From Calditrichales bacterium MX18-03 (lineage in GTDB: Bacteria; Bacillota; Clostridia; Lutisporales; Lutisporaceae): DNA of 64,000 nt. Numbering within the stretch: position 1 is the stretch's first letter; each line of letters starts with the position of its first letter. The stretch is taken from assembly GCA_021083345.1 (NCBI GenBank), contig JAJGRE010000002.1:682001-746000 (forward strand). The letters run 5' to 3'. The notes under the pieces are model-generated. The model had not been told where the DNA came from and ran no database searches. It worked only from the letters and a program-made list of their open reading frames with translations. Positions 17,284-57,095 of the stretch are shown one piece after another. The translations under genes and the position numbers were made by a program.

Positions 17284-17575
17284 TTATTGTAGCAATAAAA
17301 AAAGCTCCATCTCAAAAGAGACGGAACTTGTTCCGCGGTACCACTCTGTTTGACGCTCCACGTAGTATGAAGCGCCCACTCCATGCCCCTGTAACGGCGG
17401 GAACCGGCATGCCTTACTCTGTTCAGGCTGCTGCTCCTGGGTGAGTTCAAAGAATTGCAACTGCCGGCTCGCACCAAGAATAAAAATTGAAAACGCCTGC
17501 ACTTTCGTTTTTATTCCAACCGGCTCTCTGAAAGTTCCCCATTCTTTTACTGGTCCCGTTCTTCGCATTTTGCTG
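17284..17575 (-). promoter_or_regulatory. Leucine T-box leader
   Basis: On the minus strand the leader has a Stem I region, then TTTGAACTCACCC in which the CTC specifier (complement of 17443-17445) fits tRNA-Leu. Near the end comes the T-box core GTGGTACCGCGGAAC and a terminator, GTTCCGTCTC paired with GAGATGGAGC and followed by seven T. Uncharged tRNA-Leu would stabilise the antiterminator and permit leuS transcription. Confidence 0.93.
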
Positions 17576-20010: not shown

Positions 20011-20039
20011 TTGAGTTATTCCAGGGTTTATGTTATGAT
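20011..20039 (+). promoter_or_regulatory. Promoter of the pantothenate operon
   Basis: TTGAGT (20011-20016), 17-bp spacer, TATGAT (20034-20039). The expected start near 20046 falls at the base of the first leader stem-loop. Confidence 0.8.
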
Positions 20040-20043
20040 GTCT

Positions 20044-20125
20044 TCGGGTAGTATCCGCAAGGAACTATACCGAGATGCATTTTATAACATTTTATATCTG
20101 CTCTGAGCCTTTGGACGGAGACAGG
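20044..20125 (+). ncRNA. Tandem pan-motif RNA stem-loops in the pantothenate leader
   Basis: Two stem-loops share one plan: a 4-bp outer helix, a bulged A on the 3' side, a 5-bp helix, a bulged A on the 5' side, a 3-bp helix and a short loop. Hairpin 1 spans 20044-20073: TCGG/CCGA, bulge A20069, GTAGT/ACTAT, bulge A20053, TCC/GGA, GCAA loop. Hairpin 2 spans 20097-20125: TCTG/CAGG, bulge A121 in 20121, CTCTG/CGGAG, bulge A20106, GCC/GGA, TTT loop. The published pan motif is a hairpin with two bulged adenosines, often in tandem, in front of pan genes of Firmicutes. Position and shape agree. Confidence 0.75.
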
Positions 20126-20153
20126 CAACATATTCGTGTGATCTCGTGATGAT

Positions 20154-20204
20154 ATCACTCTTTTCCTGCCTGTTTTCGGGCTTGCAAAGAGTGATTTTTA
20201 TTTT
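20154..20204 (+). terminator. Leader terminator before panG
   Basis: ATCACTCTTT (20154-20163) pairs with AAAGAGTGAT (20186-20195), followed by TTTTATTTT. It lies 15-20 nt before the panG ribosome site and after the two pan stem-loops, so it probably acts as an attenuator. GTGAT at 20146-20150 can pair with ATCAC at 20154-20158 and would disrupt it. Confidence 0.85.
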
Positions 20205-20218
20205 GGAGGAAAAGCAAC

Positions 20219-21118
20219 ATGGAGAAGCAGCCGCTGAAAATAGGCTTTATCGGAGCGGGAAAGGTGGGCACAGCCTTCGGTATTTACCTCCGGCAGCGCG
20301 GCATCCCTATCGAAGGCTACTACAGCCGCAGTCCCGGACCTTCACAGCAGGCGGCAGGCCTGACCCTGAGCAAAGCATATAGCGATGGTCCTGCATTGGC
20401 ACAAGCTGTTGACCTGCTCTTCATCACAACCGGAGACAGTGAAATCAAAAGGGTATGCGATATTCTGGCAGAGAACCGTGCTTTCAGGGCGGGACAAACA
20501 GTCGTCCATATGAGCGGCGCCCTTTCTTCCTCTGTTTTGCAGAGCGCCGGTGATCAGGGCTGTCACATATATTCTCTGCACCCTATTCAGTCCTTTGCCG
20601 ATATCCATAAGGCCGTATCCGAACTGACCCATACGGTGTTCAGTATAGAAGGCGTTCGGGGAAAACATACTGTTCTGGAAGAGCTTTTGAAAGAAACAGG
20701 TAACCGGTGCTTCCACATCAAGCCTGATGACAAGGTACTGTATCATGCTGCCGCCTGCATATTCTCCAACTATATGACCACATTGCTGGAGGAAGGCTTG
20801 CAGTATCTGCAGCATATCGGTATCAATGCAAAAGAGGGCATGGCGGCTATGCTGCCCCTCATTGCCGGTACGCTGAGCAACATTGAGAATTTACACACAG
20901 ACGCTGCTTTGACAGGACCGATAGCCCGAGGAGATGCCGATACAGTGAAAAGCCACCTGGACGCCATCGCCTGCAAGCTGCCTGATAAGCTTCCCCTCTA
21001 TTTGCAGATGGCGGAAGGCACATTGGCACTGGCAAGCAGAAAAAAGCTGAAGGATCCTGAAAAAATAGAAGCCTTAAACCGCATCATTGCCCGGCACAAG
21101 GCTTTTAGGCCGGTTTGA
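20219..21118 (+). CDS. panG: DUF2520 Rossmann protein, probable ketopantoate reductase (PanG type)
   Basis: 299 residues. N-terminal NAD(P)-binding Rossmann fold with IGFIGAGKVGTAFG at residues 8-21, then a helical DUF2520 domain carrying SLHPIQSFAD near residue 118 and the lysine/aspartate-rich KPDDKVLYHAAAC segment. Members of this family next to panB and panC replace PanE as ketopantoate reductase (PanG was described in Francisella); here the gene is first in panG-panB-panC, supporting the same job. The start has GGAGG 8 nt upstream. The classical PanE signatures are absent. Function is inferred from context and family. Confidence 0.8.
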   Translation: MEKQPLKIGFIGAGKVGTAFGIYLRQRGIPIEGYYSRSPGPSQQAAGLTLSKAYSDGPALAQAVDLLFITTGDSEIKRVCDILAENRAFRAGQTVVHMSGALSSSVLQSAGDQGCHIYSLHPIQSFADIHKAVSELTHTVFSIEGVRGKHTVLEELLKETGNRCFHIKPDDKVLYHAAACIFSNYMTTLLEEGLQYLQHIGINAKEGMAAMLPLIAGTLSNIENLHTDAALTGPIARGDADTVKSHLDAIACKLPDKLPLYLQMAEGTLALASRKKLKDPEKIEALNRIIARHKAFRPV

Positions 21119-21172: not shown

Positions 21173-22009
21173 ATGAGTGCTAAGAAGTTTACCGTATCAT
21201 CTTTTCTGACCGCTAAAAATAATAGCGAAAAAATCACCATGCTGACCGCTTACGATTATTCCACTGCGAAGCTGCTGGACCAGGCCGGTGTGGACAGCCT
21301 GCTGGTGGGAGACTCCCTGGGCATGGTCATGCTGGGCTACGAGAGCACCCTGCAGGTAACCGTCGATGATATCGTTCATCACTGCCGTGCAGTCTCCCGA
21401 GGTACCCAAAGGGCATTGGTGGTAGCAGACATGCCTTTTCTCTCCTACCATATCAGTGTCGAGGAAAGTGTCCGGAATGCAGGAAGGATGATCCAGGAAG
21501 GCGGCGCCGGCGCAGTAAAGCTGGAGGGCGGCGAGGAGGTCATCGACAAGGTGAAAGCTATTATCAGGGCGCAGATTCCGGTGATGGGGCACCTGGGGCT
21601 GACGCCGCAGTCCGTCAACATGCTGGGCGGCTACAAGGTGCAGGGCAAGAATGAGGCACAGGCCCGGAAGCTGTTGGCGGACGCAAAGCTTCTGGAAGAA
21701 GCAGGCACATTCGCCATTGTACTGGAATGCGTGCCGGAAAAGCTGGCAAAGCTGGTGTCGGAGCAGCTTTCCATTCCCACAATCGGGATTGGTGCAGGAA
21801 AATATTGCGACGGGCAGGTGCTGGTGATTCAGGACGTCTTCGGGATATATGCCGATATAAAGCCCAAATTTGTCAAGCAATATGCGCAGGTCGGCGAAAT
21901 GATGCAGCAAGGCTGCAGACAGTACATCGAAGAAGTCAAGGCTATGGCCTTCCCAGCCGGAGAGCACAGCTTCCCCATGGACGAAGAAGTATTATCGAAG
22001 TTGTATTAG
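21173..22009 (+). CDS. panB: 3-methyl-2-oxobutanoate hydroxymethyltransferase
   Basis: 278 residues, normal length. Transfers a one-carbon unit from 5,10-methylene-THF to alpha-ketoisovalerate to give ketopantoate. [15 protein letters not shown] near residue 24, the metal-site [14 protein letters not shown] near residue 45, [11 protein letters not shown], and [20 protein letters not shown] are all family signatures. The ATG at 21173 has GAGAGGAG upstream. 54 bp after panG and 9 bp before panC. Confidence 0.96.
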
Positions 22010-22018
22010 GAGGAAACC

Positions 22019-22864
22019 ATGCAAATCGTCACCACGATCCGCGAGACGCGGCAGATCATACATAATGCCAGCCGTGAAGGAAAAACCATCGGTTTTGTTC
22101 CCACAATGGGGTCCCTCCATGAAGGGCATTTGTCCCTCATCCGTAGGGCAAAGACTGAGACCGGCTTTGTGGTTGTAAGCATATTCGTCAACCCCACCCA
22201 GTTCGGCAAGGATGAGGATTTTGAGACTTATCCCAGGAATCTTGATAGAGATGCCGCACTGTCGGAAAGTGCAGGTGCTGATCTGATCTTCTGTCCTGAT
22301 GCAGGAGAGATGTATCCGAAAGGCTTTCAAACCTACGTGGAAGTGGCGGAAATAACCACTGGGCTATGCGGTGCCGCACGGCCAGGGCATTTTAAAGGTG
22401 TAACCACAGTGGTCGCCAAGCTCTTCAACATAGTCAAGCCCCATAAGGCATATTTCGGACAGAAGGATGCCCAGCAGGCAGCCGTTATTGAGCACATGGT
22501 CCGGGATCTGGACATGGATCTTGACATCGTCCGCTGCCCAATCGTCAGGGAACCGGACGGGCTGGCCATGAGTTCAAGAAATGTATATCTGAGTGCCCGG
22601 GAGCGGAATGCTGCAGTGGTGTTATCCCAATCCCTGTTCCAAGCCGAAGAAATGATCCGTCAGGGTATCAGAGACGCTTCAGAAATCAGGCAGTACATTG
22701 CCTCAGTCATTCAGAAAGAACCGTTGGCGCAGATCGGTTATGTGGAGGTGGTAAATGCCGTCAGCCTGAAGAAGGTTGATTTTATTGCTGGACAGATTCT
22801 GATCGCTTTAGCTGCCAAATTTGGCAATACCAATCTGATCGATAACCTCTGCATCGAAGTGTAG
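22019..22864 (+). CDS. panC: Pantothenate synthetase
   Basis: 281 residues. Condenses pantoate with beta-alanine using ATP. HIGH-like motif PTMGSLHEGHLSLI at residues 27-40, FVNPTQFGKDEDFETYPR, GHFKGVTTVVAKLFNIV, FGQKDAQQ and the KMSKS-like MSSRNVYLS. AGGAGG precedes the ATG. It is the last gene of the operon; no panD (aspartate decarboxylase) follows, so beta-alanine must come from a gene elsewhere or from uptake. It converges on the sensor kinase gene with 25 bp between stops. Confidence 0.96.
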   Translation: MQIVTTIRETRQIIHNASREGKTIGFVPTMGSLHEGHLSLIRRAKTETGFVVVSIFVNPTQFGKDEDFETYPRNLDRDAALSESAGADLIFCPDAGEMYPKGFQTYVEVAEITTGLCGAARPGHFKGVTTVVAKLFNIVKPHKAYFGQKDAQQAAVIEHMVRDLDMDLDIVRCPIVREPDGLAMSSRNVYLSARERNAAVVLSQSLFQAEEMIRQGIRDASEIRQYIASVIQKEPLAQIGYVEVVNAVSLKKVDFIAGQILIALAAKFGNTNLIDNLCIEV

Positions 22865-27128: not shown

Positions 27129-27848
27129 CTATAATTTAGCTTTTGCTGCTTCCTTTACGGCCTTCTGGTGGTTGGGATCCACCCGGTTGGTGCCGTGGGT
27201 GCGGCTGTTCAAGAAGTGCACATCAATGTGACCGTCCATATCATTGTCCTTCACTTTGTCCAGGTTATAGCCCCGGCCATAGCCTGCGCTTCTGCTGCTG
27301 ACAATTTTATTGACCGGTTGTTCGTCCAGTCCGGCATGGGGCATTCCCGCCATTGAAGCGGCCAATCTTCTGCCGTCGACCTCCAATATGACGGGTCGTC
27401 TGTTCCAATTCCATGAACCTCCCCAGACCTCCTGCATGACGACGGTATCCTCTTCGGTCAGCGTTTCACAATCGGCGTGATTCCTTCCATAGGTCCTTTT
27501 TACATAAAAGCTTTTCCCGGTCCAGACATCTGTAACCTTGGCAACCGCACCGATATAGAACACCGTTTTGGCTTCCTTCCACCAGTCCAGAACCTCAATT
27601 TTACTTTCAGCAAGCTTGCTGGCTGTGAGCCTGTTTGTTGATTTCAACTGAACCTGAGCATTTGCAGCTTGCTCTGCAGTGTCCTCGCTTAAGGTTTTCA
27701 AATATGCCAGATACTCCGCTTCGGCGTTCCGTCTCTCATTGGTCAGGTACGCCAGGTATTCCGCCTCCGCATTATAGTCGGCATGAACCAGAATGGTTCC
27801 TGAAAAAATGAAAATCAACAGAAAAATTAAAAGCTTGTCTCTTCTCAT
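27129..27848 (-). CDS. Secreted protein of unknown function with a conserved clostridial C-terminal domain
   Basis: 239 residues. A clear signal peptide (LLIFLLIFIFSGTILVHA, cleaved near residue 23) is followed by two copies of NAEAEYLAYL (near residues 26 and 41) and a coiled region. The C-terminal domain, about residues 85-225, contains VTDVWTGKSFYVKRTYGRNH, ADCETLTEEDT, WNWNRRPVILEVDGRRLAAS, GMPHAG and a final HVD-type HIDVHFLNSRTHG run. Conserved His, Asp and Arg residues suggest an enzyme or metal-binding site, but I cannot name a function. The start ATG has a GGAGAGGAG-type site. Strong terminator downstream. Confidence 0.7.
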   Translation of the reverse strand: MRRDKLLIFLLIFIFSGTILVHADYNAEAEYLAYLTNERRNAEAEYLAYLKTLSEDTAEQAANAQVQLKSTNRLTASKLAESKIEVLDWWKEAKTVFYIGAVAKVTDVWTGKSFYVKRTYGRNHADCETLTEEDTVVMQEVWGGSWNWNRRPVILEVDGRRLAASMAGMPHAGLDEQPVNKIVSSRSAGYGRGYNLDKVKDNDMDGHIDVHFLNSRTHGTNRVDPNHQKAVKEAAKAKL

Positions 27849-28251
27849 GAAATCTCCTCTCCTGATACAACAAAACGAGAAAAAAGAGTTTTAACGTTTT
27901 GTTGCTCTTCAGCTTACGAGGTTAGTTGACGGATTCGGACGGAGAGTTCGCCCTAGGTTCACTTGCAGCACAAGTAACCGTTCACCCCATTGTATTCCCC
28001 CGCTCCCATATTCAAGTGTTTTATGGGATTCAGCTTAAAAAAATCCAATATTTGTTGCTTCCGCAAATTGTCTATTCTTGCAGTACGGCTTGTCTTTAGT
28101 TTACATAAATGTTCCCGTTTTTTCAATGGTATGATATGCCTTCCGCAAGCTGCCGCCATTATTACATTGTAGTCAAGCATTATCGGTGTCACTTTTTTTT
28201 CCGCTGAATACTATGTTAATGTATAAAATTTTTTAGTGCGGGTGAAAACAA
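27849..28251. other. Intergenic region between divergent genes
   Basis: About 400 bp between divergent genes, AT-rich toward the right. It contains CAAAACG...CGTTTTG as an inverted repeat near 27872-27904, just before the secreted protein gene. A 77-codon frame on the minus strand (27959-28192) has a GTG start and no ribosome site and is not accepted. It must hold the promoters of both flanking genes, but I see no clear -35/-10 pair. Confidence 0.4.
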
Positions 28252-56499: not shown

Positions 56500-56533
56500 A
56501 CATAACCCTCCTAAAAAATAATGAATAATAAAT

Positions 56534-56768
56534 AAAAAAACCTCCATCCCAAAAAGGGACGAAGGTTATTCGCGGTACCACCCAACTTGACTAGCCGCTG
56601 CCGAAACAGATGCTAATCCACTTTGCGCCTTTAACGCAGGCCTACGGACAAACTTTTTCATTTGCAGCTCTGAGGGCGGGTTCAAAGAAAATAATCTTAG
56701 AAGACCTTTCAGCCGGTGAGTCTTCCTCTCTTTCAGAATCTTTCCTTCTACTATTCCTCTTCATAGCC
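56534..56768 (-). promoter_or_regulatory. Proline T-box, copy next to rocD
   Basis: On the minus strand: Stem I with AGAGAGGAAGACTCACC, the specifier CCC (complement of 56678-56680) in TTTGAACCCGCCC, the canonical T-box core GGGTGGTACCGCG, and a terminator stem AACCTTCGTCCC with GGGATGGAGGTT followed by a T run (56534-56572 region). Specifier fits tRNA-Pro, matching the proline pathway genes. Confidence 0.92.
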
Positions 56769-56846
56769 CTATTGATATTGAATTGGCAGATATTCCTTAA
56801 TGATCTGAGATCTTTCATTACACTCAGGATGACATGCACCCCAAAA

Positions 56847-57095
56847 TAAAAAACCTCCATCCCAAAAAGGGACGAAGGTTATTCGCGATACCACCCAACT
56901 TGACTAGCCGCTGCCGAAACAGATGCTAATCCACTTTGCGCCTTTAACGCAGGCCTACGGACAAACTTTTTCATTTGCAGCTCTGAGGGCGGGTTCAAAG
57001 AAAATAATCTTAGAAGACCTTTCAGCCGGTGAGTCTTCCTCTCTTTCAGAATTTTCCCTTCTACTATTCCTCTTCATAGCCTTTGATATTAATTA
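56847..57095 (-). promoter_or_regulatory. Proline T-box, distal duplicate with altered core
   Basis: A near-identical copy displaced by exactly 313 bp, including its own terminator (about 56848-56880) and the CCC specifier (complement of 56991-56993). The core reads GGGTGGTATCGCG; the change at 56888 turns the UGGUACC bulge into UGGUAUC. The tRNA-pairing UGGU remains intact. It lies next to the promoter, so transcription must pass it first. Confidence 0.9.

Follow-up and report, generated by a model that had tools for sequence, protein, structure and literature searches.

The pan RNA in front of the panG-panB-panC operon in the window (the whole 64-kb stretch of DNA analyzed here) has a conserved core that, as read from base complementarity across the family, is coupled to its expression platform through predicted mutually exclusive pairing. 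This arrangement suggests that pan is probably a feedback OFF switch operating by transcription attenuation, with pantothenate or a downstream product as the most likely effector.

The pan RNA of the window and its operon

A search of all of Rfam against both strands of the window recovered a full-length match to the pan family (RF01749) at 20045-20128 (54.4 bits with a cut-off of 36.2, covariance model positions 1-92, E = 1e-6). Of 200 shuffled versions of the leader, 198 fold less well than the native sequence, and together with the E-value this places the RNA well beyond chance; hence, the leader is an authentic member of the described pan family, as the first-pass annotation had proposed. 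The pan motif was described by Weinberg et al. in 2010 (PMC2864571), whose main text presents it as a pair of hairpins in tandem, each carrying two conserved bulged A's, found in front of genes for pantothenate synthesis. The window copy shows no structural difference from this family: its stems are likewise broken by two conserved bulged A's, in tandem, and with panG-panB-panC it precedes an operon of the panB, panC or panD kind that is typical of the family. It is the only pan RNA in the whole 4.69-Mb genome. The features of the locus are:

20011-20039, + strand: promoter of the sigma-70 type, TTGAGT-17-TATGAT with an extended -10 TG (consensus scan)
20044-20073, + strand: pan hairpin 1 (RF01749 match, covariation)
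20097-20125, + strand: pan hairpin 2 (RF01749 match, covariation)
20205-20209, + strand: Shine-Dalgarno GGAGG of panG (sequence)
20219-21118, + strand: panG-type ketopantoate reductase, Rossmann-like plus DUF2520 (Pfam PF10727, PF10728), with the name panG resting on operon context
21173-22009, + strand: panB, ketopantoate hydroxymethyltransferase (Pfam PF02548, E 6e-119)
22019-22864, + strand: panC, pantoate-beta-alanine ligase (Pfam PF02569, E 5e-109)

The genome has three panB homologues (C8:703185, C8:1043750 and C10:4305), with the pan RNA found at the window copy only. The window also contains other RNA elements on the minus strand. Two tandem T-box leaders (56530-57081), each of 239 nt, 98% identical and 313 nt apart, precede an ornithine aminotransferase-proC-glnS-like gene row and seem to reflect the recent duplication of an entire T-box. 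A further T-box leader (17314-17572) lies before leucyl-tRNA synthetase, and a c-di-AMP riboswitch (27896-28045) before a secreted-looking protein (27129-27848).

For comparison we surveyed related genomes: pan RNAs occur in 14 of 22 within the window's family, and the figures for its class and its phylum are 56 of 391 and 152 of 398. A total of 172 pan loci were collected and oriented, and covariation was analyzed on 117 non-redundant pan RNAs. The helices of both hairpins covary strongly, with most helix pairs being 88-100% paired as against 60-98% after shuffling. All four bulged A's are nearly invariant, being kept in 114-117 of the 117 RNAs. In the window, hairpin 1 comprises the helices UCGG/CCGA, GUAGU/ACUAU and UCC/GGA capped by a GCAA loop, with a 3' bulged A69 between the first two and a 5' bulged A53 before the third. 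Hairpin 2 comprises UCUG/CAGG, CUCUG/CGGAG and an apical helix with a UUU loop, with a 3' bulged A121 between the first two and a 5' bulged A106 before the apical helix. The tandem plan with its bulged A's thus stands as first annotated, but hairpin 2 is topped by a G.A pair and two C-G pairs rather than by an apical helix of three regular pairs; in 30 of the 117 non-redundant relatives, too, G.A replaces U-A at this place.

The promoter, also noted in the first pass and recovered by the consensus scan, predicts a transcript start at ~20045-20047, the first base of hairpin 1. Among the non-redundant relatives a -10 box ends 5-8 nt 5' of hairpin 1 in 53 cases, as against 1.6 expected from shuffles, and this spacing indicates that pan RNAs probably start at hairpin 1. 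A start further upstream would give the window leader a longer transcript with a different fold.

A predicted antiterminator formed by hairpin 2

Folding supports the intrinsic terminator and the attenuator layout recognized in the first-pass annotation. A fixed-pattern scan missed this terminator, since a second helix is nested within its outer stem. The elements of the platform, all on the + strand, are:

20116-20127, + strand: putative antiterminator 5' strand, CGGAGACAGGCA, i.e. the 3' strand of hairpin 2 plus GCA (family complementarity)
20146-20158, + strand: GTGAT-GAT-ATCAC mini-hairpin, an accessory element at most (sequence)
20154-20204, + strand: intrinsic terminator, stem 20154-20163/20186-20195, U tract 20195-20204 (folding)
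20167-20178, + strand: putative antiterminator 3' strand, TGCCTGTTTTCG, i.e. the upper part of the terminator

The two putative antiterminator strands form a 12-bp pairing, and since its 5' strand is drawn from hairpin 2, hairpin 2 and the antiterminator are mutually exclusive. Before the 3' arm of the terminator exists, the predicted energies are -39.8 kcal/mol with the antiterminator versus -30.2 kcal/mol with hairpin 2, and the antiterminator is predicted to stay ahead by 7-10 kcal/mol until that arm is made. In the complete leader the corresponding predicted values are -46.2 and -44.7 kcal/mol; with the gap shrunk to within 1.5 kcal/mol, the direction of the switch is not fixed by the energy model itself. 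In the window alone the complementarity of the hairpin 2 3' strand is only moderately unlikely by chance (p ~0.03 by run length, 0.07 by energy), and the case for the antiterminator hence rests on the family.

A predicted terminator lies within 130 nt of pan in 119 of the 172 loci. We compared how well the 3' strand of hairpin 2 complements the terminator (5' arm plus loop) of its own locus and terminators swapped in from other loci. The mean duplex energy is -11.25 kcal/mol for the own terminator versus -9.8 kcal/mol for swapped ones (z -7.1); in non-redundant sets of 96, 74 and 55 loci the z-scores are -6.6, -6.6 and -4.9, and in these three sets the observed complementarity was reached by none of 200 terminator swaps. 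Five other segments of the leader displayed no excess of complementarity to the terminators (z -0.3 to -1.7). Placement of the antiterminator in hairpin 1, the linker, the 5' strand of hairpin 2 or the segment after the hairpins was accordingly rejected, there being no excess family complementarity.

At other loci the same core adjoins translational signals. In 15 panT loci the Shine-Dalgarno follows hairpin 2 immediately, beginning at its base, and the start codon comes 6-8 nt after that; L151 and L170 apparently share this layout with a non-standard start. Folded hairpin 2 as the OFF state fits the terminator and Shine-Dalgarno layouts alike. Four loci (L021, L027, L035 and L063) have a Shine-Dalgarno hairpin 3' of hairpin 2 with recurrent antisequestor pairings from hairpin 2; single-locus tests of this antisequestor were mostly not significant (p 0.03-0.98), and such a third platform is a hint only.

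Regulon content and the effector

The first gene after pan is of the panG/E type in 88 loci, panB in 26, panC in 19 and panT in 17, with OPT (8), PanS-like (5), birA (2), bioY (2) and coaBC (1) making up further first genes; L006 is an extra panT locus beyond the 17, its panT having been hidden by the reading-frame length cut-off. The ECF S component PanT and the pantothenate kinases CoaW (type II) and CoaX (type III) are encoded downstream of pan in related genomes, unlike in the operon of the window. At L112 and L132 pan precedes bioY-panT-coaX, which places a biotin-type S component within a pantothenate operon.

Both panB and panC are missing from ten pan-bearing genomes, which represent six families; these absences are probable rather than certain as the genomes compared are partly metagenome bins, though eight of the ten are at least 95% complete. 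In these genomes pan precedes panT-coaX, panT-coaW, bioY-panT-coaX or OPT-coaW. Given that an effector preceding pantothenate would be useless without panB and panC, the effector should be pantothenate or a later compound, up to CoA. Hence, this regulon would remove pantoate and ketopantoate as general pan ligands, leaving pantothenate or a compound further along the pathway (4'-phosphopantetheine or CoA), sensed directly or via a protein, as most likely. The first-pass annotation regarded ligand and mechanism as unsettled, in agreement with the main text of the 2010 description (PMC2864571), the sole one found, and the effector has remained unsettled since. Our literature search, which covered that main text, returned this description and mentions in transcriptome studies, and no ligand.

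A predicted pantetheine-salvage module

In each of the eight loci where pan controls an OPT gene, the next gene is coaW, which encodes the type II pantothenate kinase. Such OPT-coaW loci are L045, L054, L055, L057, L060, L121, L142 and L143 (and L173-L191), often with pan upstream. In public genomes coaW follows nearly every close relative of this OPT (~50% identity or more; 21 loci), but not the more distant ones. Pan lies upstream in 7 of 60 scanned OPT loci, with four of the seven being contigs already in our set. No PanT homologue, and no PanF above its cut-off, was found in the eight OPT-coaW genomes. In yeast, Opt1 takes up pantetheine in the form of a mixed disulfide, and pantetheine is phosphorylated by type I and II kinases and not by those of the CoaX type (PMC12406275). 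CoaX is present in all three of the eight OPT-coaW genomes that were tested, so in these the extra kinase CoaW is not needed for pantothenate itself. Taken together with Opt1-mediated pantetheine import and the inability of CoaX to act on pantetheine, this makes it a reasonable prediction that OPT-coaW is a pantetheine-salvage module, with OPT as the putative transporter that brings in pantetheine or some other precursor of CoA. If so, the effector of pan is more likely to be 4'-phosphopantetheine or CoA.

At L045 (4111-4343), L054, L055, L057 and L060 hairpin 2 adjoins the Shine-Dalgarno of a reading frame of 10-25 codons, which lies after pan and ~180-230 nt 5' of OPT; some of these loci have a weak terminator-like hairpin further 3'.

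Riboswitch, protein partner and other explanations

How the effector would act on hairpin 2 admits two principal explanations. We see about even chances that pan is a riboswitch proper, which directly binds a small molecule (CoA, 4'-phosphopantetheine or pantothenate) through one or more pockets formed by the bulged-A motifs. The near-invariance of these A's and the U-A to G.A exchange beside one of them are consistent with this, as are the combination of one conserved core with different expression platforms and the retention of pan on uptake operons by genomes lacking panB and panC; on the other side, the conserved core is small for an aptamer and the ligands are candidates.

Alternatively, and somewhat less probably, the two hairpins might bind a dimeric protein, as the main text of Weinberg et al. 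2010 proposed from the tandem plan (PMC2864571). A specific candidate here would be the dimeric type III kinase CoaX, which at high levels of CoA precursors would keep hairpin 2 in its folded state, with the downstream switch operating as outlined above. CoaX (PF03309) is encoded in several pan-controlled operons, and occurs in 79 of 80 pan-bearing as against 33 of 41 pan-free genomes tested; the sole pan genome lacking it (G487) has a congener with both. However, CoaX is commonplace in this group of bacteria in any case, and its association with pan (p 0.001 by Fisher's test on the first 71 and 40 genomes) is uncorrected for phylogeny. With its near-perfect co-occurrence offset by this high background, CoaX was not retained as an obligate partner. 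Type III kinases are not known to be inhibited by CoA. The co-occurrence would fit either a role for CoaX as partner or simply a need for feedback at the transcript level where the kinase escapes inhibition by CoA.

It is improbable that the terminator and its complementarity are incidental, with pan acting on mRNA stability or on translation of panG: 53 of the 172 loci do lack a terminator within 130 nt in the same scan, but most have one that is specifically matched to hairpin 2, and in the window panG starts 90 nt downstream. Less probable still is the first-pass proposal that GTGAT (20146-20150) is the antiterminator by pairing with ATCAC (20154-20158) in the 5' arm of the terminator: the sequence is present, can pair perfectly over 5 bp across a loop of 3 nt and appears in folds of a truncated leader, but across the family the sequence separating hairpin 2 from the terminator is no more complementary to the terminator 5' arm than expected (z -0.3), and this pairing would be uncoupled from the pan hairpins and is far weaker than the 12-bp antiterminator.

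Proposed mechanism and implications

Family membership, covariation, the conserved mutually exclusive pairings and regulon content are all derived from sequence comparison, in which E-values and duplex energies do not amount to function, and from these we infer both the direction of the response and the identity of the effector. In the attenuation mechanism that we favor, transcription would begin at hairpin 1, and in the nascent leader two partners would compete for the 3' strand of hairpin 2: the 5' strand of that hairpin and, once transcribed, the upper arm of the terminator. At low effector levels the antiterminator would win, allowing readthrough into panG-panB-panC; at high levels the effector would stabilize hairpin 2, the terminator would form and transcription would stop. 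The window pan resembles transcription-attenuating riboswitches in its conserved core overlapping the antiterminator, its terminator before the coding region and its bistable energies; unlike them, it is a predicted switch with candidate ligands and a possible protein partner. Neither the pairing between hairpin 2 and the terminator nor the control of panT, panS and OPT-coaW operons by pan appears in the main text of PMC2864571, although some of the platform may have been described before.

More tentatively, pan might be a general CoA-supply switch that senses CoA or 4'-phosphopantetheine, directly or via CoaX, and turns genes OFF by termination or by blocking the Shine-Dalgarno, with pantetheine salvage by OPT-coaW among its targets. 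What is added to the known family is a proposed mechanism, a narrowed list of ligands and a predicted CoA-precursor transporter in OPT-coaW. The pan switch thereby becomes concrete and testable by mutation, and the pan RNA can be used as a marker that predicts a bacterial importer for CoA precursors.
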